A stretch of DNA of 64,000 nucleotides, taken from assembly GCA_029204225.1 (NCBI GenBank), contig CM055109.1, forward strand, positions 32,870,927 through 32,934,926, in the 5' to 3' direction. How positions within the stretch are numbered: the first letter of the stretch is position 1; each line of letters starts with the position of its first letter. This DNA comes from Diphasiastrum complanatum (Eukaryota > Streptophyta > Lycopodiopsida > Lycopodiales > Lycopodiaceae). The notes beneath the pieces were generated by a model. It saw only the letters and a program-made list of their open reading frames with translations. It ran no database searches and had not been told where the DNA came from. Both the position numbers and the translations under genes were made by a program. Below, piece after piece: positions 19,659 through 54,559 of the stretch.

Positions 19659-20313
19659 TGTGAAAAATACAGATCCTAAGTGGATCTAAACTCCAAGATC
19701 ATTGGCTTGAATGCTTGCACTCCAAACTACATAAGCTAGGAATTGGCAACACATTCTATGCTACCTAGAATGCAAAGAACTTGATCAAAAAGCATTTATC
19801 ACAAATGGAAACTTCCATAAACATCAAGTGCGGCCCAAAATAGCATTATACAGTCCATAATACATCAGCCTACCACTTTTGGAAAGCACCTAAGATCATA
19901 CACAATAGCTTGAAGACAATACACACAACAATGCTCTCAATGGAGGAAGAAACAATGACAATGATCTATTGATCTCAATGAAGCATACAAAAGGTTTCTC
20001 CAACCTGTTCTCCACGACTTCCCTACTATTTATGGATGAGGAAGATGACTCTCTCTCCTCTCTCTAGAAGGTACTTGACCCTAGATATTCCCTATATAGG
20101 AAAAATAGCTAAAAATGGCTTATATGACCAAAATACATCAAAATGGTCTCATTTTGAAGGGTATGAAGTTTGACACTTCATCATACTGAAAAAATACAGT
20201 AAATAAAAACATTGTGGCCTGGTTCACACGTGTGAAACTCCAGAACCAAAACTATTTACAATTTTAGCCAATTTAGGCCTCAAACTAGCTAGGAAATGTT
20301 GACAATTTTCACA
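19659..20313 (-). repeat. 3' LTR of element D
   Basis: 655 bases, TG...CA. Contains the perfect palindrome TTCACACGTGTGAA at 20223-20236. The last codon of gag-pol is completed inside this LTR. Confidence 0.95.
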
Positions 20314-23300
20314 CTCCCTCTTCAACATTGGATGCTAGTTTCAACATAGTCTTTGAGCACATTCCAAGATTAGATCTATGCATTAAATATAGGTCCTTTC
20401 CCAATGGTTTGGTGAAGATATCAGCCACACACTCCTTTGAAGAGACATGTTGAAGCTCCACCTCTTTGGCAATGACTTGATCTCTCACAAAATGGTGAGC
20501 AATCTCAATGTGCTTGCTCCTTGCATGAAAAACAGGATTGCTTGCCAAGCTTTGGGCTGAAAGGTTATCACAAAGTATGATTGGAGTCTTCTCTGGTTCC
20601 AGCAAGTGAAGATCCAATAACATCCTCTTGATCCAAAGAATCTCCTTGGTGCATGTTGTTAATGCCTTGTACTCGGCTTCGGTGGAAGATAGAGAGATAG
20701 TTGGTTGCTTCTTTGATAGCCATGAGACCACTCCATCTCCAAGATAGATTGCAAAGGCACTTGTTGACTTCCTATCCATTTGATCACCTGCAAAATCTGA
20801 ATCTGAAAATCCACAAAGGTTAGGTGTAGTACCTCCATACAAGATGCCAAAATCTCTAGATCCCGAGATGTATCTAAGTACTCTCTTTCCTAGCTTCCAA
20901 TGAGCCTCACTAGGATCTTGCATAAATTGACTTAGTTTACCAACCACAAAGCTTAGATCAGGTCTTGTGATGGTTAACCATATAAGAGATCCTATTAGCT
21001 TTCTATAGAGAGTAATGTCCTTGAAGGATCTTTCATTACTTCTTGTAGTTAGCTTTACATTTGATTCCATAGGAGTAGAAACAACTTTACAATCTTTCAT
21101 ATGAAACCTTTTTAGAATAGAGTTAACATACTTTTCTTGACATATGAATGTAGATTTAGAAGTTCTAATAGTCTCTATTCCTAAGATATAATGAAGTTTA
21201 CCAAGATCTTGAATTTCAAACTCTCTTTTGAGTGCCATCTTGATTTCATCTATATCTAGATTGTTACCACCACTTAAGATAATGTCATCAACATAGATCA
21301 AAAGTAAAGTGATATCATTTTCATTCAATCTAAAGTAGAGAGAATGATCATACTCACTCATAACAAAGTTTTGAGAAAGTAAGAAGGAATTGAGCTTAGC
21401 ATACCAACTCCTTGGTGCTTGCTTTAGCCCATACAAACTCTTTTGGAGATAGCACACATGATTAGGCTCATCATGTGAAACATAGCCCTCGGGTTGCTCC
21501 ATGTAAATATCTTCTTCAAGATCACCATTCAAGAAGGCATTAGTAACATCCATTTTCCACATATCCCAATCATAAAGAGTTGCAAGAGAGATTAGGATTC
21601 GAATAGTTACCATCTTTGCCACGGGTGCAAAGGTCTCATCATAGTCAATACCATATTCTTGAGCATACCCCTTTGCCACCAACCTTGCCTTGTACTTGTT
21701 GATTGATCCATCTTGATTTGTCTTGATCTTGAAGATCCACTTACAACCAATTGCCTTCTTGTCCTTTGGAAGCTTTACCAACCTCCATGTGTTGCTTTTG
21801 ATGAGTGCTTGATGCTCATGATCCATGGCTTGGATCCATTCCTTCTTTTGAATTGCTTCACCTACACAAGTTGGTTCATCAAAAGAGGTAAGAAAAGCAA
21901 AGTTAGAGTTGTCCACCACTTGCTTTCCTTTTTCATCATAGGTTAGCCTTGATGGCTTAGCCCTTTGCCTTTGAGTCTTCCTTGAAGTTTGCTTTGGAGT
22001 GGCATCTCCATCTTCATCCAAGACATCTTGCACATCATGATGATTAGTAGGCACATCAACATCAACATCAACAACATTGGAAACATTCTCTTCATGAAAG
22101 ATGACATCCCTACTTATGACAACTTTCTTTGTAGAAGGAATGTACACTTTGTAAGCCTTGCTTACTTCACTATAGCCAACAAACACACCCTTCTTTGATG
22201 AAGGATCTTCTTTAGTTCTATCATCAAGTGTGATATTGACAAAACATGTACATCCAAAGATCCTACAATGCTTGACACTCGGCCTTCTACCATAAAGAAC
22301 CTCATGAGGAGTTTTACCATCCAAGGAAGCACTTGTCCATCTATTACATAGATAGTTAGCACATGCTAAAGCTTCCCCCCAAAAAGACTTAGCAAGATTA
22401 GCATGTAGTCTCATTGCCTTGGCACATTCACAAAGGGTTCTATTCTTCCTCTCGGCCACTCCATTCTGTTGTGGAGTCCTAGGACTAGACATCTCCCTCT
22501 TAATCCCATGTGCTATACAAAAGTCTTTGAACCTATTTGAGGTGTATTCCCCTCCATTATCAGATCTTAAGCATTTGATCTTTGTATTGAATTGGTTTTC
22601 CATTTCATTCTTGAACTTGACAAATGCAGCAAACACTTCATCCTTACTTTTAAGAAGATAGATCCAAGTATACCTACTAAAGTCATCAATGAAAGTTGCA
22701 TACATCTTTGCCCCACCATTGCTAGTTGTACTAGAAGAATGAATATCAGAATGCACAAGTTGAAAAGCTTCTTTAGATCTAGAAGTAGATCTAGAATAAG
22801 CAAGTCTATGAGATTTGGACAAGGCACAATGTTCACAAACACTATTGTTTGCAACAAGACTTTTAGGGAGACCAAGAACAAGCTCTTTCTTTGCCATTAC
22901 CTCCAAAGATTTGAAGTTGGGATGGCCCAACCTCTTGTGCCAAACTTCTTGGTTTGTCAATTGCTCCCTAGCCATACATCCTTCATGATTAGAGATCACA
23001 CATGCATCAAGCTTGAAAAGTTTACCATGCCTCCTACCTTGAGCAATCAAGGATCCACATTTACTTATCAAACATGCATCTCCAATGAACTCCACATCAA
23101 GTCCTTTGTCAATCATTTGACTTACACTAAGCAAATTCTTAGTGATTGAAGGAATGTACAAAACATTTTCAAGATTTTCTTTCCTATTTGTTGAAAGGGA
23201 AATAGGAATAGTGCCTATGCCTTTGATGTCACATTGACCATCATTTGCAGTGTAGATGATGTTACCTTCTCCCTCATAAGACAATAAGGATGTAAAGTAT

Positions 23301-24262
23301 TCCTTATGTCTTGTCATGTGAGATGAGGCTCCACTATCAATCCACCAAGGATCATTATCATCTATGTTGGCTAACAAACTTGAAGTCATAACAAGTGATT
23401 CACATGTGTTATGTTCTTCCTCATCTATTGTAAGATTTCCTTGCCTCTCTCCTTGCTCTCTTTTCTTCTTATAACATTCATTTGCAAAATGACCTTTTAT
23501 CCCACAATAAAAGCACTTGAACTTTGACTTATTGTTCTTAGTAGAAGAGGAAGAGGAAGAGTGATCATCATGATCAAAGTTACCACCTTTGGACCATTTC
23601 CCTTTGCCTTTACCTTTGCCCTTGAATTTGCCTTTTGTGAAGAAAGCCTCTTCACCTCCACCTTGCAAGGATGCACCATCAAGCTTTGATTGCAACCTAT
23701 GTTCTTCAGCCAATAAGATTTCTTGCAAGTCAACCACACTTGGCAAGACTCTTTGAATGGCAAAACTTTGCACAAGGTTAGCATGTTCATTTAGCAAACC
23801 ATTCAACATAACTTGGACTATTTCACCATCTTTTATGTTCTCATCAATGCATGCTAAATCATCACTTAGGGACTTAACTCTCAAGATAAATGCATGAGCA
23901 CTTTCACCCTCTCTTTGCCTACTAGAAAATATTTGTCTCCTTAGGGTCAATACCCTAGATGTGGACTTTGATTCAAAGAGCTTCTTTAAGGCATTCCATG
24001 CCTCACTTGCACTTTGACACTTTCCAACTTCCTTGAGAAGTTCATTTGTAACATTCATTTTAATGATATGAAGAGCCCTTTTGGCCTTCTTATCAAACCT
24101 TTGTTGCTCTTGAAGTGTGAGAGGTCTCTCTTCAATTTCTGCAACTATGTCCATGAGTTCATTCAACTCAAGTAAGGACTCCATCCTCACTTTCCAAGTA
24201 GAGTAGTTTGATGAACTCAACCTTTCACTAGACTCTAGCATGATCCCACCATTGGAAGCCAT
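20309..24262 (-). CDS. gag-pol: copia Gag-Pol polyprotein (element D)
   Basis: 1317 codons from ATG 24262 with no interruption. Domains by approximate residue: Gag (UBN2 type) 10-240; zinc knuckle CFYCGIKGHFANEC ~250; aspartic protease WWIDSGASSHMT ~305-316; pre-integrase HHCC with VWHKRLGHPNF ~440; integrase core with HSDIHS ~500, RSDNGGEY ~565 and PQQNGVAERKN ~600 (D,D-35-E); RT beginning WRLVKLPKDKKAIGCKWIFK ~825 with catalytic YVDDIILSG ~990; RNase H with SDSDFAGD ~1150, SSTEAEYKAL ~1195, CDNLSAQ ~1230 and ADIFTKPLG ~1280. Length and order are those of a full copia polyprotein. The final residues EEGV are encoded by the polypurine tract, and the TGA stop uses the first bases of the LTR. 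Confidence 0.97.
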   Translation of the reverse strand: MASNGGIMLESSERLSSSNYSTWKVRMESLLELNELMDIVAEIEERPLTLQEQQRFDKKAKRALHIIKMNVTNELLKEVGKCQSASEAWNALKKLFESKSTSRVLTLRRQIFSSRQREGESAHAFILRVKSLSDDLACIDENIKDGEIVQVMLNGLLNEHANLVQSFAIQRVLPSVVDLQEILLAEEHRLQSKLDGASLQGGGEEAFFTKGKFKGKGKGKGKWSKGGNFDHDDHSSSSSSTKNNKSKFKCFYCGIKGHFANECYKKKREQGERQGNLTIDEEEHNTCESLVMTSSLLANIDDNDPWWIDSGASSHMTRHKEYFTSLLSYEGEGNIIYTANDGQCDIKGIGTIPISLSTNRKENLENVLYIPSITKNLLSVSQMIDKGLDVEFIGDACLISKCGSLIAQGRRHGKLFKLDACVISNHEGCMAREQLTNQEVWHKRLGHPNFKSLEVMAKKELVLGLPKSLVANNSVCEHCALSKSHRLAYSRSTSRSKEAFQLVHSDIHSSSTTSNGGAKMYATFIDDFSRYTWIYLLKSKDEVFAAFVKFKNEMENQFNTKIKCLRSDNGGEYTSNRFKDFCIAHGIKREMSSPRTPQQNGVAERKNRTLCECAKAMRLHANLAKSFWGEALACANYLCNRWTSASLDGKTPHEVLYGRRPSVKHCRIFGCTCFVNITLDDRTKEDPSSKKGVFVGYSEVSKAYKVYIPSTKKVVISRDVIFHEENVSNVVDVDVDVPTNHHDVQDVLDEDGDATPKQTSRKTQRQRAKPSRLTYDEKGKQVVDNSNFAFLTSFDEPTCVGEAIQKKEWIQAMDHEHQALIKSNTWRLVKLPKDKKAIGCKWIFKIKTNQDGSINKYKARLVAKGYAQEYGIDYDETFAPVAKMVTIRILISLATLYDWDMWKMDVTNAFLNGDLEEDIYMEQPEGYVSHDEPNHVCYLQKSLYGLKQAPRSWYAKLNSFLLSQNFVMSEYDHSLYFRLNENDITLLLIYVDDIILSGGNNLDIDEIKMALKREFEIQDLGKLHYILGIETIRTSKSTFICQEKYVNSILKRFHMKDCKVVSTPMESNVKLTTRSNERSFKDITLYRKLIGSLIWLTITRPDLSFVVGKLSQFMQDPSEAHWKLGKRVLRYISGSRDFGILYGGTTPNLCGFSDSDFAGDQMDRKSTSAFAIYLGDGVVSWLSKKQPTISLSSTEAEYKALTTCTKEILWIKRMLLDLHLLEPEKTPIILCDNLSAQSLASNPVFHARSKHIEIAHHFVRDQVIAKEVELQHVSSKECVADIFTKPLGKDLYLMHRSNLGMCSKTMLKLASNVEEGV
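20314..20325 (-). promoter_or_regulatory. polypurine tract of element D
   Basis: Minus strand TTGAAGAGGGAG directly before the LTR TGTGAAAATT. It doubles as coding sequence for the polyprotein C-terminus. Confidence 0.85.
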
Positions 24263-25422
24263 GATTCTAATGTTTCTTCAACTTTTAGGTTCTGTCCTAA
24301 AGCACTTAGCACTCACTTTTCTCTCAACAAATGATAGATAAAGAGATCTATGAAGATTTAGGACCCTAAAACACTTCTATCTTGAACCTAGATGGTTTCC
24401 AAGCATAGAAAGGAAGATTGAAACACATGCAACACTTTGCACACACTAAGAATGGATTACAAAATCAAACCAACCTGAACACACTCTTGCTTAAGCTCTC
24501 AAACTTTCCAGCAAGTGACCAAATCAAGTTATGGTGTGAAGAGTTACTTGCATTCTTAGAAAATACCCAAAACTAGGATGCCAAGATTACCTAGTAATGA
24601 ACAAACTTGATCAACATATGATCAACACACTAAGATATTGATTCAACCTGTAAAACCACATGTAAACCACACTTCTAAAAGTTTATAAACTCCAGCAAGT
24701 GATAAATACAAGATTTAGAGGTGAATGAATGAGCACACTTAGTGAATCACAAGACTAGCTTCACTATCTTGTCAAATCTTGGTGTTTAGATGTAGATCTA
24801 AGATCACTTCACATGAGAATGTTCCTCAACCTGTTAAGAACCTGAAAACACACTTGCATAATGGGTAACACCTTCCAGCAAATGCTCCAATCAAATTACA
24901 TAAGGAGAGTTACTTACATGCTCAACAAAGTACACCAAAAATTATGCCAAAATTGATGACAATCTTTACAATATGCTCTTCACAATGGAGCTTACAATAT
25001 GTTCACCCAAAAAAGGGGATCTTTCATCCAAATGGGAGCTTTGCTCAGCCTTTAGGAGAATTACAACTCACTCAAAAGAGCATTTGTCATCCACTTAAGG
25101 AGAAGCTTCATCCACTTAAGGAGAGTGTTCATCCAAGAATGGGGATTGTCAACAATAGGATTGAAAAGAACATTGTTAGTATTGAATATGCACAAGCCTC
25201 ACAATCACAAATGATTAGGTGTTATGATCTGATCCAAAATAGTTTCTTTTCAGCCTCTGATCTTCAATATACCTGAAATATGCTTTTGATCCACAAGTTC
25301 AACTCACAAAACAAAGGTTAGTAAGATTTGATCAACAAAGCAATGCAAAATCATGCTAGAACTTGATCAAACATCCAAATATCACCAAAAATGGAATACT
25401 TACTGTAAATAGAAGCCAACCA
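24263..25422 (-). other. untranslated leader of element D
   Basis: About 1.16 kb between primer site and Gag start, unusually long. It is closely related to the element F leader (16647-18037) and contains a short minisatellite of TCATCCACTTAAGGAGA units at 25085-25140. No long ORF of recognised kind is present on the coding strand. Confidence 0.8.
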
Positions 25423-30660: not shown

Positions 30661-30850
30661 AAAATATTACGAACGACAAGTAAGAAAACTTATCGTGCGC
30701 AGCAAAATAAACTATCTTCCTCTTTTTTCATGCATGACTACGCCTATCAATTTCAAACAAAACTGATAAAAAATCACGTTCGATCTTATAGTAACTAACT
30801 TTGAAATCATCAGTACTACAGTGCATTAGAGGAGTTCTTTGTAAAGATAC
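30661..30850 (-). repeat. family C-like LTR fragment
   Basis: CATGCATGACTACGCCTATCA and AAAATCACGTTCGATCTTA match the order in 13560-13660. The adjoining RT fragment and this LTR piece have probably been joined by deletion. Confidence 0.6.
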
Positions 30851-31133: not shown

Positions 31134-32559
31134 ATGTACAGTTACATAAAATATGGTATACGCAGTAACTGTGACTATGTCGGCATTCACATTAGATTAA
31201 ATGTGATACGAAAAATTGAAATTAAGTATCATATCAGAGAGATTTTTGGTGTCCAAGCTTTGAAAATAGCAATGGCAAGGAGACCCAGATCTACTATCGA
31301 TTATGTGATTCTTTACAATGAGAAAGATGAAGCTGATAACTGGAAGCCAAAAAATATACGAAGAACTCATGGGTATTGCTGCATCCATCATCAAAAGGCA
31401 ATTTTTGACAAAAGAAAAGAGCAAAAATGACTTACAAATCTTATTGGAAAGCAAAAAATTTGGAGTTTAAGACTACCCGGGGAGGTCAATCAATATCAGA
31501 AGTCTTAGTGCAACATGTATATATGCATTCAGAAATCAAAGTACATGATATCAATCCTCATGATCATCAAAAATGTAATTGTAAGTATATCAAAACATAT
31601 GCACTCTACAGCAATCATAGGTGATTTCCTTTATTGATGCTCTTCAGATTATGATGTAAGTGCTTCAACATTGTTTTTATCTTTTAGATTTATATCCATC
31701 ATGCATAAGTGAATGGGAGCCCGCACAATCACTTGTAGGAATATTAGACGTGATTCATTTTTAAAGTTGGAAAGCTGCAATACCGAGGAAGAAGTCCAAA
31801 GGAGCTTGCAGATTGTGGTATCTATTTTTATGAATCTTTATATATGCCACAAACAGATGGAGGTTTTGGCAAGCTCGAAGCAATTCCATTGTCTAGTTTT
31901 CAAAGTGATGAGTGGCCTACTCCTGACAGCATTGTTTCTGAATCCTTGAGATGCAAGCTACTCATTGATATTAGAAATGCTATGAAGATAAGCACAAGCT
32001 CAAAAATTGTTCACCTGAGTTGGTTTATCTCATTGCATATATTTGTTGATTTTTTCTCGAGTGCTAGTGTTCGTAGGACACCAACTTTATTTGTTTGCAA
32101 GGATTGATCAGATGAGACTTTGTCAGATCTCATGGATCAAGGCTGGGATAGTAAAATAAATAATGACATAGAATGCAAGATTAAAAAGTCCTCAATGATC
32201 TTTCGTTATCATATCGAAAAGCAAGAAAATACAAGAAAATTGAAGGTACATGGCTAGCACTGGATCAAGACTTTGAACTAAATGGTCACACAAACCGAAT
32301 GGAGATAAACATTATCTACAATAAGAAATATTTGACTATGGTTGAGGTGGAAGAGCATTGGAAGCTTGATTTTATCAGAACAGAGCTCATGCTATTACAA
32401 ACCAATCTACCAACATATTTCAAATTTATCATCAACGGAAGACTCGTAAGTACTTTATGCTTATCGCCATTTCAAAATAGAACAAAATAATAGAAAATGT
32501 CATCATTTACAATTGCACATTCACTAATATTTGCCATGTCACAGATGCGAAAAAGATAG
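31134..32559 (+). pseudogene. unrecognised spliced gene 1 of the non-LTR cluster
   Basis: Several plus-strand open pieces in consistent order: 31134-31430 (MARRPRSTIDYVILYNEKDE), about 31780-32107 (SPKELADCGIYFYESLYMP, FGKLEAIPLSSFQSDEWP) and about 32200-32445 (YKKIEGTWLALDQDFELNG, MVEVEEHWKLDFIRTEL). The last exon ends at 32445, followed by a GTAAGT...CAG intron (32446-32544) and a short final exon with TAG at 32557-32559. AATAAA follows at 32670. At least one frameshift (near 32190) and stops suggest decay, although some may be unrecognised introns. I cannot name a family. It converges on the histone-protease gene. Confidence 0.45.
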
Positions 32560-32814: not shown

Positions 32815-34562
32815 TTAATTTAGTATAACTACATCATCCTTTGCACCATCATCAATAACGGGAGGCTGAAGCCTTGCCCTAGCCAATATACTCAGGATAA
32901 TTTCTTGTCTAACTCTGTACACCTGGCTTGATGTGTACTTAGGAAGTGTAAACTGCAAAATAGAACATTCATGTATTAGTAATGGCCAAAAACATCACCA
33001 TAATATAAAACTAATCATGATTCCAAAATAAGAATAAACATAATTAATTACCTTAGAAATATCAACATCTTGTTGAAGGACGAACCACTCTAAAAACTTG
33101 GCATTGTATAATGTGTACCACCCACAGCTGAATGAATCATTTTGCTGGGGTGACTGCAAAATAATTCAACACACAAGAAATCAATTATGAAACAGAATGA
33201 ATTAGATTAAAAATATTTCATTAGAATACTGATTTCAAAATGCTATTAAGAAAGACAGAGTTTACCTCCAAACTGACAATCTGCTAGTCCACGGAATGGG
33301 GAACGTCTGTAGGAATATATTTACTTAGATATGGAAGGTACATATCTACATCCTTATGCGTATTTCTCGCCGAATTCATCTTGACACAAAAACCTTTAAT
33401 AATATTATTTACAGATCCCTTAATAGTAATCAGATTTAAACTCCAATGGTCACTGCAAAATAAGATTGAAATTTCTTTAGCTGCAATTCTGAGAACTATT
33501 TCCATTGACAATGCCAATGTTAATGCATAAAACAGCAAGAAGCATTTAATATATCTTACTTCGTATGATAAGGTATGAGCAGATACTTTGTTGTGTGAAT
33601 CCACTTGTCAGACACTGTGACAATGTGTCATTGTTCTCCTTGAAGGCCTGAAGCAGAAAGTTACTCAGCACCAGCAACTCATTTGATGAATTTCTTGTAA
33701 TGTCATATTGCAAGAGTGTGAGCCCAAACTCTATCACAGGATCACTAATAGGAGCCCGTCTGACTTTGAGATCCAAGCAATCTATAACTCTAAAATTAAT
33801 ACTAAAATCAACTTCATCTAGTCTAAAGCAAAAAGGAGTACCAATAGTATCTATGACATCGGATATGTCTTTCTCAAATTTAAGATAATCATCCGAATCT
33901 ATATATGTATAAAAATTTGGAGGAGGAGGAGGAGGTGGATGTGTAGTATCTACAGCAATTGAAGGGGTATCCAAAATAGAGATAGCTATATTTACAGCAT
34001 TATCAACAGCAGCGTTATCTACAATGGATTCCGGGTTAGGCTTCACAGAATCTGAAGGGTTAGGCTTCACTTTCTTAAGAGCACGCTTGGGAGCTGTCTG
34101 CTTCCTAGGATGCTTCGTAGGAAGATCAGTCCTATCTACAGAAGTTGGTCTAGGAGCAGCAGGCTGAGATACATGTAACCTACAGTACCTATCCCTCATC
34201 CTCTTCAGAAGATGAAAATCCTTGGGCATTATGGTAACCCTCTTGGAATGGATGGCAAGCAAAAAAAAATCCTCAAAAAAAAGACTAATGTAATCTTCAG
34301 CGGCCTTCTGAAGGCACTGAAGAGCATTGGGTGTCAATCTAACCAACTGTCCGAGATCATTTCTTGTTATGTTCCGGACAGCACGGTAGAATGGAGATCT
34401 CGGGATCAACAGAGCTGTTGATCTCTGATACTTGCGTATCTCAGAGAGCTACCTGCTGCGGTTGCGCATTCTAGGTCTAGCGGGTGGTGTGATGGCAACC
34501 GCAGGGGATGAGGATGAGCCAGGAGAGAAGAAGTCCCTCCTTGTCTGCTTTCTCCTATCCAT
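32815..34562 (-). pseudogene. H3/CenH3-like histone fold fused to Ulp1-like C48 protease
   Basis: Four exons by GT-AG signals: 34562-33560, 33480-33266, 33153-33052, 32952-32815; introns of 79, 112 and 99 bases. N-terminus MDRRKQTRR echoes the H3 tail. Residues ~39-130 are an H3 fold (EIRKYQRSTALL, LQKAAEDYISLFFED, AIHSKRVTIMPKDF), with loop 1 one residue longer than canonical H3, as in CenH3-type variants. A Lys/Pro-rich linker and eight prolines follow. The C-terminal domain matches C48 SUMO-protease order: ISDPVIEFGLTLLQ, then SDHWSL (catalytic His), an Asn where Asp is usual, and SPQQNDSFSCGWY (oxyanion Gln, nucleophile Cys). In-frame TAGs at 34449-34451 and 33284-33286 make this copy a likely pseudogene. 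A role in chromatin-targeted deSUMOylation is only inference. Confidence 0.8.
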
Positions 34563-35393
34563 GGACGTGTACTATGTGATAGCGGACTTGTGCATGACGG
34601 TTCGGATGAGTAGGGAGGAATGATAAAGAACTCGCAGAGGACCGATATGTACGAACAGAATGTACAGTATATTGGACCTATGCAAGTCGAATATCAGAGA
34701 GAACGATTAGTTTTGAGGAAAGACGCACAAGTGCGATATGGGGTGACACGTAGGCAAACGTATCGGACCTGTGCGCATGGAAGGCGATAGGAGAAATTTC
34801 GATTGTGAAGGACGCACACAAGTGCGATATGCGGAGCCTAAAAAAAATGAAAAAAATTCATCGAAGTTTGTGATTTTATATTGCAGTTCGCACATGCGAA
34901 AGAACGTCTTGTCACACATGTGGGAGTTGTACGGACAAATGCGAGAGCGACATGTGTCACCCTGTTACATTACACGTGTGGGATTTGTACGATCTAATGC
35001 GAGAGCGACACGTGTTGTTGAGCAAACGAATGAACACGCGACACATGTCCAGGTGTCATTTCACACGTGTGTTGGTGTCACCTCACACGTGTCTACGCCT
35101 GTAGTCCAATTGAAAGTTGACGTGTGTCCTAAGTTCGTTGACCACATGTGCAAAAATTTAGTGTAAATGGCACAAAAGCCGATTAATTTTTTACCTTTTT
35201 TGTTTTCGAAATTCGCGGCATATCGCTCTTGTGTGCGCTCATTGCCTTTTGTTTGCTTGCAACTGTACCTACTCACGCACAAGTGCGATATTCGGTATCT
35301 GCTTGCCGTACATATCCCTCTTGTGCACCATTTTGATAGTTAGTTTTGGTTCAATTCTCCTTCGCGCACAAGTGCGATATTCACGTTACTGTC
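34563..35393. promoter_or_regulatory. divergent intergenic region with repeated palindromic boxes
   Basis: It lies between the starts of the histone-protease gene (-) and gene 3 (+). GCACAAGTGCGATAT occurs exactly at 34725-34739, 35277-35291 and 35366-35380, the last only 13 bases before the gene 3 ATG. A close variant lies at 34815-34830 and an inverted variant at 35220-35237. The middle (34910-35150) is packed with CACATGTG/CACACGTGTG boxes. This looks like a shared bidirectional promoter or a protein-binding array of the element. Confidence 0.6.
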
Positions 35394-36900
35394 ATGGCCT
35401 CTTCCTCATCATCCTCACGAGATTCAGGCTTGAGTTCATTTCTTAGTGAATTTGGGATTACTGAAAACCTAGACTATTTCCACAGTCTATTCAGGCCATA
35501 TCTACATGTTTTCAGGACTGCACAACCAAATTCTGATTTTATGACCATTATGTCAGATTCAGAGATATACTTAGTAAGCCTGTTTTCTCCATAGGTCCAC
35601 TCCAGTACATGCATTATACTGATCTTGTTCATTTCTTCCCAGCTTTCAGACATAGACTGGATAGAATGTTCACCAAATTGTTTGATCTTTTCAAAAGCAG
35701 TTCAATGTGTCCGTATTGCAACAAGAAATGTCAATTGGTTGAATTTCAGAGTGGTTTCGTACTTTTTTTGTTAGTTTAGATCCCAGGTGATGATGAAGTT
35801 TCTGTTGCTAACCCTCCTTTTGCACCATCCTCTGTTCAGTCAGCTATTAAGGATATCAGTCACTTTCTTATCGACATTCCTGATAAGGAAAGTGACTTTA
35901 TTGATGTAAATACTAATGTTCTCCGGGATTCTTTCATTGGCCAAAATACATTCGATGATAAATCCAAATCTATGGAGGAGTCGAAATATCTTTTCAATTT
36001 GTCTGTATATTATATTAATGACGATGTATATTTTACTACTGCTGATTTATGTAAAAAATTTTGACTATTGTGAGGACGAGGTTCTATGTTTATTATCCGG
36101 CACAATTTCTGCATTCTCCGACTTTGTAGATTTTGAAACAGATGACCTTGTTGCTGGTATTGATTTTGATGATGAGGAGGGACTTATGACTGGTGAAGAA
36201 TGTCTGAATAAGACTTTATTAAATATAGTTGAGGATGGACGAGGCAGACCATCCGATGAAGAATTCATGGCATTTCAATCCCAGATGGGCTTCCCTCATC
36301 CATCATTAATGCATTTCACTAATGATTCAACTTCAACACGTGGTCATTATATTTATCATCTTGATCTGGTTGCTGATGATGATGAAGAATGTGTAAGTGT
36401 TTAATCTTCCTTGCATTTGAATGTTTTTAATCATTGAATGTGTTTTGCTAACATATTTTCTATTGTAGGATGCTCTCATAATAGATGATTTTGCTGCGAG
36501 ACGCGGTGGTTTCAGACAACACGCATCCTCGTTCCAAAGGGACAGTGGACTGGGCCACTATCTTAGGCATTTCCTGAAGAATGAGATCTGTATTGCTCAT
36601 TCCAAGCTGAGCCCAGTCGGGGAGAGTCTTATAATGGCAGTTAAAGCTTTATCATTTTACCTAGGAGGACATAAATTTGTTAAGACGAATAAGATCATTT
36701 TTGTCAAAAGATCTTTGAACATTTTAGACTTTATTGATGGGAATGTTCCTTTAAGGAGCTCCCATTATTCATTGTATTCCACTTATATTGAGCTTAGTGG
36801 AAATAAGAATAATGCACATCTATTAGATGCATACGCTAGCAAAGAATTTTTTCATGATAATATTGCCATAGAATCTGATACAAGATCTGATGATGAATAG
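35394..36900 (+). pseudogene. unrecognised acidic-protein gene 3 of the non-LTR cluster
   Basis: ATG 35394 opens MASSSSSSRDSGLSSFL. A GT at 35574 and a pyrimidine-rich CAG at 35640 offer an intron, but the best-looking downstream frame (FTKLFDLFKSSSMCPYCNKK, a possible CxxC...C zinc site) does not follow it in phase. From about 35780 a second block runs to 36392, with one slip in the A6 run at 36053. A clean intron follows (36393-36468, GTAAGT...TAG) and the last exon ends at TAG 36898-36900. The protein is acidic (TDDLVAGIDFDDEEG; DLVADDDEEC) with a basic patch after the intron (AARRGGFRQHASSFQR). No family recognised. It starts divergently from the histone-protease gene. Confidence 0.5.
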
Positions 36901-37159: not shown

Positions 37160-38172
37160 TCATTTTTCATTGGTTCCTCCATGTTGTGTATTTCGATAAA
37201 ATGTTGCTCGTGCTTGCCAGTGTGACTTCTCCATCCCTTGTGATGACCATACACTCAAGCTTCCATATGTATTTGCAAAAAATGTTGTATGATCTCTTAG
37301 TATGTGCTGCATATGTCAAAATCATAATGTTAGTCTTATGTTTGGATCTAAATATATATGAAAATTTGAAAGCATTTTGTAAATTTTTTACTAACCATGT
37401 AATGAGTGATGTGATCTTCTCCCCATGCTTTTGATACTGCATTAACAAACTCGACACAAGTCCTTTGGACAGCTTTCTTATCAATATTAGAGTATTTTTC
37501 TTTTCTTAAAATAGCAATCATACTATCAAGCTTTTTCCATACATCAACTTTTAGTACTCTGGTTTTGCCGTCTTTCTCGAAGTCCTGAGTGGCAGCAATA
37601 ATATCTGTCCAGACTGAGTGTTGAATATTAGAAGCCTTACCAGTATGATTTGATAGAAAACGACGTGCTTTTGCTCCTCCTATGCTTGGCTTAGTTGGCA
37701 TGTTCCCATTCTTTCCTGAAAGCTTTTCATTTTTTTGAATTTTGACATGTCCTTTATGGAGTCCTGCTTTTGATAAAACATTTTCTAATCGAGAGATAGT
37801 TTCCTTTGCTAATGATGTTGGCTTAGTATTCCAAGCAAAAACTATATGAAGATAAATGATCTTTTATATTAATCTAACTTCTGCATGAAGAGTGCAAACA
37901 TGCACATTTTTTAAGAGGATAGGTAGCACAGGCTTCTAGTTTGGATCTGCATATTCTCTAGTAATTCATGTACTCCTAGTTACATCTTTTGCCATTTTCA
38001 TGCAGTACAAACAAGGGTGTTTTGATGTAGCACCGTGAGAGACATTATACATACATTTCAATGTTTTCAAATCACCTGCTAAGTGCCATTCAACATTGAA
38101 GTCTCCAACTCCTGAAACATTGAGAAGTCCTCCATCCATATGGTCCTTGATGATCCTAGGATAAGATGTCCT
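37160..38172 (-). pseudogene. transposase-like gene 4 of the non-LTR cluster
   Basis: Minus strand from 38172: VEWHLAGDLKTLKCM ... SKHPCLYCMK, then a region with stops near 37990 and 37967 (PVLPILLKNVHVCTLHAE), a one-base frameshift near 37862, and an open exon to 37396 containing KPSIGGAKARRFL and AWGEDHITHYM. A GT-AG intron (37395-37307) joins it in phase to HILRDHTTFF, YGSLSVWSSQGMEKSHWQAR and TQHGG, ending at TGA 37160-37162. This order (GDLK, CxxC, KARRFL, ITHYM, GMEKSH) recalls a widespread group of uncharacterised transposase-like proteins; that is recollection, not a search. The N-terminal part was not found. Decayed. Confidence 0.5.
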
Positions 38173-41040
38173 TGAGAATACCCATGATGTACATGAATGG
38201 AAAAATCCACAACATGGATTATGGTAAACCTTTAACTATATTCAGCATCCAATCAATAACACCCATTCATCCTAACAGTTCCTTCATTAGCAAAAACCGA
38301 ACTTATGTTCAACAAGTACCTTGCTACAAGCTTATGTTCGCGATGTTCGTAATGACCGAAGCCAGTTTGAACACAATCGAACCATCCATAAGTGTATTAC
38401 CGATAGAAAAGGGAAAAAAAAAAATCACAAGCACAATTTAACTCAATTCACTGGGAGTAACGTACTCTAGAGTTAAATCATTAGAAAGCACGGTACCAGG
38501 TACTACCGATTACCTACCTAGGAAAATTTTGGAAAAAAACTAAAAATTTGCTGTCAATCCTAAATCCATAAATCTAGTTCACATACTCACCGTTAGGATA
38601 GCAAAATTATTCATTCGATCAATTTTCAAGTCAAGGTTTGGAGAATTCCATTCTCAAATGTTGGTTCAGGTAGATTTTTCGAAAATCACCAATTTAAGCC
38701 GACGACAGCTTTACCCTAAAAAACAACTAAACTGAACTCCATAAAGTCCTAGGCCAGCCCATCATAGCATTTGTTAGCCATGAAACTCGTATTTAGTTTA
38801 GTTATAAAGTGGCATTGGGAAAAAAAACTAGTAAAAGCAAATTTAAAAATCCCTAACAAAATCATGGTTAAGATCCTCACCACGGTTGCTTCAGCCGCCA
38901 GGCCACAGATGGATGGATCCATTCAAAAGCTCCCTTCGAAGACCCTGGCACCTTCAACAGGTCAAAACAGGGAAGGTACAACTGTTTTCTTTCAGGAATC
39001 TGCCCAGTCCATAGCAGTTCTGTGCAGGTCATCAGATCGAATGAACAATGGCAAATCAAGGTTTTTCCACGCGTTCCATCCAGAGCAGCCATCACTGGCA
39101 AAAAAAATGTCTATCTGTGCAACTACAGCTGCTCGCGCATCCACCTGCCCGTGTACTCAACATCAACCAACTTTTCAATCCCTCACAAACACCCAGAAAA
39201 GGTGAGTAAGCACGCCTCTGAACTGCTGGAATTCATTCGCAGATGCACGTCTTCAGATTCTCAGAATTGAAACTCATTCTTGCATCAATCCCAGAAGGCA
39301 ATGATTGAAAAGACCAACGATAAATACCGGCAGAATATTTGCAAGTTCCAAAGACTTCTCATATAGATCAGTGCTCTGTCTCCTGAAGGACAAAAGTGCG
39401 AACTTGAATAAGCAATAACCAGGGTTCTGGAGCTTCTATCACTAGAGGTAATCTTATGAGGAAATTACTGGCATGCTCAAGTATTTTTGACCTGCAAAGC
39501 CACTGTCCATGCTTCCCTCGCTACCTCCGGGATGAATTCAAAGCAAAGCAGAGATTCAACTGAATAACTAACAGGGAACAAACGTTCCATCAAACTCAAA
39601 AAGTCTAGCTCTCTCTCCTCCCACTGCTGATTCATAGTTACATTTAGAAAATTGACATAGTTGCAATTCCATTAAATTTTCTTGGTTTGCATGATTCATA
39701 AGAAGATCAGTTGTACGTAAACTGCCCTCCTCAACTTGCAACAAGTAGTTTCGAAACAACACCACTAAAAGTTTATTTCACCGGGACAAATGGATCCCAA
39801 TCAATCAGTCAATAAACCCAATCAGTCATGCACGAAACCAATTTCTAAAGAACATTGCGGAACGGTGCAACTATCTAATCCTCCAATTGTATGAAATCCA
39901 AGCATCGATATACAAGATTTGCACATGCAAAACATCCCTCATCCGATAGGAATTTTCAAAGAAGCAGGAAATTGGTAATGAATCAAACACTAATCAGAAG
40001 CAATATCAACAAAAGATCAAACAAGTGAGAAAGCACTCTACCACCACTTTTGCGGAACGTGCTTCACTCATGAATTAGTGAATCCAAAATTGATTTACCT
40101 TGAGATTGCTAAAAAAATTGGAGTTTTTCATCAAAAAATGATCAGAAGATCAAAAAACCTTCACTAACTCTTGTCTGACCCAGTGATTACCAAACATAAT
40201 ATGAGAAAATGATTGATGATATTGGCGAAGGTTCGAGCGAAGGTTCTTTTCCAAGATCTAATATTCTTGGAGAAAAGTTGAACTTTCAAATAAAAGGTTA
40301 TGAGGAACGAAAAAAATCTTCACTATTATTTCTATATTTAGAGTTGCCAACCTATTTTTAGATCTAACTACAATAGGTTGGGGGCGAGGGTTGATTTCTT
40401 GTTATTGATTTTGGCCCTTTTTTTTAGTTTTTGGAAAATGTAACAGGATTCAATCCCAACAAGTAACAGAAAATATAACAAGTTCAATCCCAACAAGTAA
40501 CAAATTCAAATAATAACAAGATCATAAGAAAACATGAGAGATGGAGCAAGAAAGAAATAGCATAGGGCATCCAATTGCAAATCGGTAGAGTTTCCACCAC
40601 CTTGATTGAACATAAATATGAACTACAAAGCACCACTTTATACAGTGGATTCTAGGGCACTTGGCCTCAAAGCCTATTGGCCAATTCCTACCTCCCTCCT
40701 TATTTGAATTTGAATTTTGTGGAAAACCCACTTTTATTCACTAACTTGACTATTAGGCCTTTTGACATTCATTTTCGCAATTTGGCCTAAAGTCCTTTTA
40801 TTAACTTCTAATAATCAAATAGCTATGTGATCATCGGGTTGGACTTACACACGCAGGGTGCCAAGTCTGACACACTTATTCATAAATGCAGATCTTCTTG
40901 AAATCCACAAATCCTCCAACACTACCTTATCACTAGAACTAGTCTATCCAACATAACGTTTCTTGATCTACTATTAACCAATCTATCCAAGCTACCTATC
41001 CCTAACGAGACTAGTCTAAAACTACATTAGCTATTATGAT
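38173..41040. other. long stretch without recognised genes
   Basis: Short open frames exist (for example 38771-39205 and 39022-39270 on +) but none shows family motifs or plausible splicing. A 20-base unit TTCAATCCCAACAAGTAACA occurs twice at 40449-40505. Sequence near 40530-40900 has the look of a degraded LTR. It may include the remaining end of the non-LTR cluster. Confidence 0.3.
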
Positions 41041-53975: not shown

Positions 53976-54182
53976 TCAAATTCTCCTTCTCAATGGTGCA
54001 TTTATTATAAAAAAAATGAACTTCAAACTATAGTAGGAAGTAATTACATTAATTGAAAGAAGATTTTCAGATAATTTAGGAACATATAGTACTTGTTGAA
54101 TGGTCCTTGGCTGATGTATTGTGTTGATAAAAACATTAGGGGAGTTTTGAGCTCCAAAAAGGCCCTTTAAGAATTTGTGCAA
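53976..54182 (-). pseudogene. copia protease/pre-integrase fragment
   Basis: Minus strand reads TIQQVLYVPKLSENLLSINV, the link between protease and pre-integrase domains. It belongs with the piece at 54560-54880, from which it is separated by about 370 unassigned bases. Confidence 0.8.
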
Positions 54183-54559
54183 GATGTAGTTTATATTATT
54201 AAAATATTATAACATAATACTTTTGACTTGCCATAACTTTTTAATCATATCTCATAACTATGTCATGTAACATATCATTTTAAAGCCCTTGTTGAGCCCT
54301 TTTTAATGCACCAAACTTCGCTAAATTCAAACTTACCACTAAAAAATTATGCCATTTTTAGTGTGGAATCAAAAAGTTACATCACGTAGATTTCAAATTT
54401 GAGTGTTTTGATTGGTCCATGTGTAAGAAAAAATTGAGAAAAAATATAAAAAGAATCTTTACAAAGGGTCTTTTTTGGATTCAGAATTCCTCTAATGTGA
54501 AACCAATTCTCGTAACTAGAATATAACTTTTATCACCTAAAAGATGTTGTCTTTGTTCA
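54183..54559. other. unassigned AT-rich insert
   Basis: Separates two parts of one copia protease region; no coding motif or clear terminal repeat. Confidence 0.3.

Follow-up and report, generated by a model that had tools for sequence, protein, structure and literature searches.

The window, that is the whole 64,000-nucleotide stretch of Diphasiastrum complanatum DNA analysed here, belongs to a 1.74 Gb genome in 5,176 contigs and carries a copy of a high-copy DNA transposon. One gene of this element, gene B, is predicted to encode three parts in one frame: an N-terminal tail with a histone fold, both H3/CenH3-like, a linker rich in basic residues and proline, and a domain of the C48 (Ulp1) type. 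Its parts in the window are as follows.

33560..34562, minus strand: exon 1, with the H3-type tail, histone fold, basic/proline linker and start of the C48 domain
34449..34451, minus strand: in-frame TAG of exon 1, lying before the histone fold
34200..34445, minus strand: histone fold (PF00125), whose best PDB matches are histone H3
33266..33452, minus strand: exon 2, with the His (DHWSL) and the Asn of MNS
33284..33286, minus strand: in-frame TAG in exon 2
33052..33153, minus strand: exon 3, with the Gln and Cys (QQNDSFSCGW)
32815..32952, minus strand: exon 4, ending with a TAA stop

The sequence-only reading of this stretch had proposed a single gene, with three in-phase GT-AG introns, coding for an H3-type histone fold and a C48 domain. 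The histone fold was confirmed by Pfam (PF00125, E 2.4e-21 for the stretch 33546-34448, minus strand). So was the C48 match of the C-terminal exons: PF02902 gave E 7.8e-9 and 36.1 bits (cut-off 20.7 bits) when the tail of exon 1 was joined to them, falling to E 1.7e-4 and 21.9 bits when that tail was omitted. The motifs named, ISDPVIEFG, DHWSL and QQNDSFSCGW, are all present. The intron claim held in part: there are three candidate introns starting with GT and ending with AG in the splice model, which is predicted from sequence here and in the other copies (33559-33453, 107 bases; 33265-33154, 112 bases; 33051-32953, 99 bases), but with a frameshift late in exon 1 the joins are in phase only at introns 2 and 3, and the copy of gene B in the window is broken, not intact.

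Copies and diverged families of gene B

The search with 2.8 kb of DNA gave 48 matches at 89-100% identity (40 of 2,726 candidates scored), and the exon-1 protein gave 131 matches at 80-100% identity (131 of 9,131 candidates scored), 35 of them, including the open stretch of the window itself, being stop-free across the matched stretch. These matches are spread over many contigs, a distribution that counts neither for nor against centromere targeting. The alignment comprised 28 copies, the window and 27 others (L032 and L033, of the 29 fetched, were omitted as incomplete); in 12 of the 28 the exon lengths are exactly 1007+187+105+138 nt and the joins are in phase. The copy at L017 (1010+187+105+138 nt) is open from ATG to TAA over 479 codons, with matches to PF00125 (E 8.3e-22) and PF02902 (E 3e-9, 37.5 bits, over the cut-off), and a single exon, read in a single frame, holds its histone fold, its linker and the first part of its C48 domain.

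Eight further H3-like places were fetched from the genome, and three carry the same H3-C48 fusion. Together with the family of the window (F1) they define families F2 (L073 and L078) and F3 (L076), which are 32-48% identical and keep the fusion architecture; F1 is 32-35% identical to the other two (160/459 identical residues with F2 at L073, 145/455 with F3). The proteins start with MARTKQTAR in L073 and with MARMKQTTR in L076. Read by eye, the alignment has intron 1 splitting an Asn codon in phase 2, before the HW motif, in each of the three families. Intron 2 precedes the QQ motif, in phase 0 for F1 and F2 and at an unchanged site in F3; intron 3, read less closely, is similar across the three. 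The two-domain order proposed from the window thus occurs elsewhere in the genome, in an open frame in L017 and as the same architecture, with the same first two intron sites, in F2 and F3. The 131 matches and the recurrence in diverged families show that the fusion is more than a chance arrangement. A wrong joining of separate genes was judged unlikely, the histone fold, linker and first C48 part sharing exon and frame in L017 and F2; exon 1 of F3 has one frame break.

The other five places (L074, L075, L077, L079 and L080) encode an H3-like protein with no C48 domain in the 1.9 kb read. The first 450 bases of these five, in gene orientation, hold a multi-copy H3-like frame (WLQDIRSYQKSVKFLIPRAPFVRLVKEIVDEF...), which may belong to another repeat with an H3 variant of its own. 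At L047 and L048 the flanks show a copy of the element inserted within diverged H3-like sequence (47% identical), indicating that the element families nest in each other.

Gene B has an H3-type histone fold, and its placement was addressed with a tree of 16 histone folds, in which seven reference rows had been entered by hand. In this tree the fusion families group with P0033 (support 71) outside canonical H3; a node with support 95 unites canonical H3 and P0001, excluding the fusion families. The H3-like repeat F4 joins the fusion group at 64 and plant CENH3 at 57. An origin from H3 or CenH3 had been left open by the sequence-only reading: the tree places the fold outside the canonical H3 grouping, but the link to CenH3 has support of only 57, so that a CenH3 origin is a lean, weakly favoured over canonical H3. 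The CENH3 of the host was not recognised among the 150 sequences scored of 5,531 candidates, which were taken as canonical H3 and repeat copies. The exon-1 protein gave no viral relatives in phage records or IMG/VR. P0033, a metagenome protein of 391 amino acids, is H3-like, has residues of the CenH3 type and carries a long extension at its C terminus. As a distant H3-C48 fusion it is not supported: the extension has no significant similarity to the C48 part, scoring 29 where shuffles average 31.7 and 29.1, and hhalign gave E 0.48.

Ends of the element and companion genes

The remaining features of the element in the window, and a miniature inverted-repeat transposable element (MITE) with the same ends, are listed below.

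30824..30839, plus strand: left terminal inverted repeat, with one mismatch to CATTAGAGGAGTTCTC
31754..32490, plus strand: gene A, with no Pfam match over the cut-off for its pieces, convergent with gene B; broken in the window
34721..35382, no strand: intergenic region separating the divergent genes B and C, in which the 21-bp repeat CACAAGTGCGATAT occurs four times; candidate shared promoter of both genes
35395..36392, plus strand: exon 1 of gene C (MASSSSSS..., MCPYCNKKC); broken in the window
36469..36900, plus strand: stretch within the span of the two-exon gene C (35395-36900), with no Pfam match over the cut-off
37163..38235, minus strand: 3' part of gene D, a RAG1/Transib-fold transposase candidate, in several frames
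54134..54497, plus strand: MITE of 364 bp with the terminal repeats of the element, up to three mismatches in its ends

The end of the element reads CATTAGAGGAGTTCTCAATATC with small differences, and the flanks vary. All 39 other left-end matches have their first base at position 138 or 139 of the query, immediately within the end (40 of 4,870 candidates scored), and all 40 MITE matches scored (of 2,884 candidates), that of the window included, cover the MITE to within two bases. The opposite inverted repeat was found in L037, and one full-length copy, L009 (reached via L036 and L037; contig C3, 75990059-75999354, 9,296 bp), is the only one seen with both repeats. The element is therefore an inverted-repeat DNA transposon, with inverted repeats, sharp ends and many copies; a Helitron, considered for the CTAA-like end, was dropped once the opposite inverted repeat appeared in L037 and in the MITE. 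These ends, the copy number and the companion genes bear out the proposal that a mobile element had captured an H3 or CenH3 paralogue, now coupled to a domain of the Ulp1 type.

Gene A is a 286-amino-acid open stretch in four copies (L007, L016, L025 and L027), and its pieces in the window gave no Pfam match over the cut-off; the same was true of the pieces of genes C and D. Exon 1 of gene C is open over 336 and 337 amino acids in L018 and L024, respectively. Gene C, with its two exons and CPYC..KKC motif, is diverged but recurs near gene D (in the window, at L081 4571-2991 and at L082). The pieces of gene D contain, in order, the motifs GDLK, CLYC and H-x4-H-x19-E, an order compared with the RAG1 motif spacing; the 5' part of the gene was not found in the window copy, and the alignment of D gave no viral relatives in IMG/VR. 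A metagenome relative, P0003, is 41% identical over 84% of the D reading from L035, and its predicted fold resembles RAG1 and Transib, making gene D a candidate for a transposase of this fold. One diverged locus has gene B beside relatives of C and D: at L081, upstream of F3, the order is D, C (divergent), B. There D matches the L035 reading at 58% identity across 543 columns, and the identity of C is 26-48%.

Possible role of gene B and relation to known systems

We consider it probable that gene B encodes an accessory transposition protein, which its histone fold would place on chromatin and whose C48 domain would remove a tag there. The fold would pair with host H4 or histone chaperones, putting the protein on nucleosomes at element or target sites; the C48 domain (putative active site His-Asn-Gln-Cys) would then strip SUMO, or a different ubiquitin-like tag, from the transposase, from repair factors or from the chromatin nearby, which would help the element to escape silencing or choose a permissive site. 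A series of results weighs against this account of gene B and its element, and these are given below with the explanations on which they bear.

Under the splice model, 27 of the 28 copies of gene B contain stops or frame breaks, as do all three F2 and F3 copies (L073, L078 and L076). Changes among the 28 copies fall on the three codon positions without bias (335/319/339, 479 sites each), for which reason the present copies are taken to decay neutrally; together with the star-like tree, this is the pattern that a single burst and subsequent neutral decay would leave. The broken copies and the flat codon-position pattern are what would be expected if gene B were a passenger, a chimera acquired in a single capture and propagated with the element without serving it. 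The two subfamilies that the tree was used to define, with 11 copies apiece once six near-duplicates among the 28 had been set aside, tell of an earlier time: they differ by 10, 5 and 17 fixed changes at positions 1, 2 and 3, of which 16 are silent and 16 are not. About a quarter of changes are silent in the absence of constraint, so that constraint on gene B before the burst is likely. The architecture, intron sites and most active-site residues are moreover kept across families only 32-48% identical, and the D-C-B order is preserved at L081; a mere passenger is in our judgement very unlikely.

The C48 domain is less well marked in the diverged families. In F2 (L078) the PF02902 match stayed under the cut-off, at E 0.0071, and in F3 there was none at E <= 1; in both, the assignment consequently rests on alignment with F1. 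Ulp1/SENP C48 peptidases have a His-Asp-Cys triad and an oxyanion Gln. The His, Gln and Cys are retained in F1-F3, with the exception of L078, in which the Cys is replaced by Tyr, a later change in one copy. The canonical Asp was not found at the expected place in F1, F2 or F3: in the preferred alignment the position of the Ulp1 Asp (VDSL) is Asn (MNSG/MNSL), and the alignment made by HMMER, which puts it elsewhere, near Val or Lys, has no Asp there either. Because the triad is incomplete, the domain is C48-like and not a proven C48 peptidase. In the protease of African swine fever virus an Asn occupies this position, so that protease activity is possible by analogy.

With the usual Asp missing, the C48 domain might be mainly a SUMO-binding or processing module and gene B might steer integration, its CenH3-like fold guiding the transposase complex to particular chromatin (e.g. 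centromeric). The position of the histone fold in the tree, CenH3-like and apart from canonical H3, agrees with this, but support there is only 57-71, and we regard such steering as unlikely. C48 and related CE-clan enzymes act as processing proteases elsewhere, and the two domains of gene B are separated by a long linker; cleavage of the fusion, or of other element proteins, by the C48 domain, releasing a free H3-like protein, nevertheless seems to us highly improbable. The title of a 2025 paper on SUMOylation-dependent control of KNL2 centromere targeting and CENH3 interaction (PMC12903445) makes the pairing of a CenH3-like fold with a Ulp1-like domain biologically sensible.

As to the class of the element, 12 flank pairs were compared, one from the C3 element, one from the window MITE and ten from other MITE copies, and none showed a target-site duplication of any length from 2 to 10 bp. 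Mutator-like elements have a MULE transposase and make a duplication of about 9 bp. No MULE family appeared among the Pfam results for the element pieces scanned and, with no target-site duplication and a candidate RAG1/Transib-fold transposase, the element does not look like a Mutator type as far as tested. The fold model behind that candidate is of P0003, not of the D of the window (mean predicted local distance difference test score, pLDDT, 67.1; predicted template modelling score, pTM, 0.53), and a profile search of PDB sequences retrieved no RAG1 or Transib. At L082, upstream of F2, relatives of C and D are present in another order and orientation. Transib and RAG-like elements share with this element the predicted transposase fold and, for the RAG-like ones, more than one gene (PMC7204232, PMC9435367), and 39 Transib-like proteins have already been reported in plants (PMC9435367). 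They make 5-bp target-site duplications (PMC7204232), whereas none was detected here, and for this reason the element was not classed with them; their ends are also of CAC type rather than CATTAG, and a histone-protease gene is not mentioned in the portions of both reports available (PMC7204232, PMC9435367). It is possible, if doubtful, that the element represents a new eukaryotic DNA transposon superfamily, with a RAG1-fold transposase, no target-site duplication and its own nucleosome-targeted, de-modifying CenH3-Ulp1 enzyme kept over long divergence. On that reading its way into chromatin would be to mimic a histone, in contrast to RAG2, which reads one.

Each ingredient seems to be already known. 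A hAT-type element of Pyrenophora tritici-repentis, likewise an inverted-repeat DNA transposon with a many-copy H3-like histone-fold gene, carries H3L, which fits neither H3 nor CenH3 completely (PMC3538342); unlike gene B, H3L is a separate protein beside the hAT transposase and a central open reading frame, and the accessible part of that report mentions no protease domain. The KIU/VANC-Ulp1 genes of plant Vandal (MULE) elements, whose VANC family counters silencing, are also transposon accessory genes with an Ulp1 domain, but belong to Mutator-type elements and are described, in the sections available, with no mention of a histone fold (PMC13317346). Ginger1 is again a DNA transposon with a protease domain (Ulp1 or OTU), in this case on the Gypsy-integrase-like transposase itself, histones going unmentioned in the available text (PMC2836005). 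No report of an H3-C48 fusion was found in the open-licence literature, a coverage outside which Repbase lies; the element itself may already be named there.

A histone variant linked physically to a domain resembling a SUMO protease would amount to a natural device for placing itself in chromatin and editing modifications there. Gene B would offer a testable example in which a transposon turns histone mimicry to targeting or to countering silencing, while gene D would add a RAG1/Transib-fold relative with new partners and an unusual insertion mode.

Apart from this element, the window contains several Copia-like pieces, among them a 1,322-amino-acid open frame at 20309-24277 (minus strand) that appears, by eye, to be an intact Copia polyprotein.
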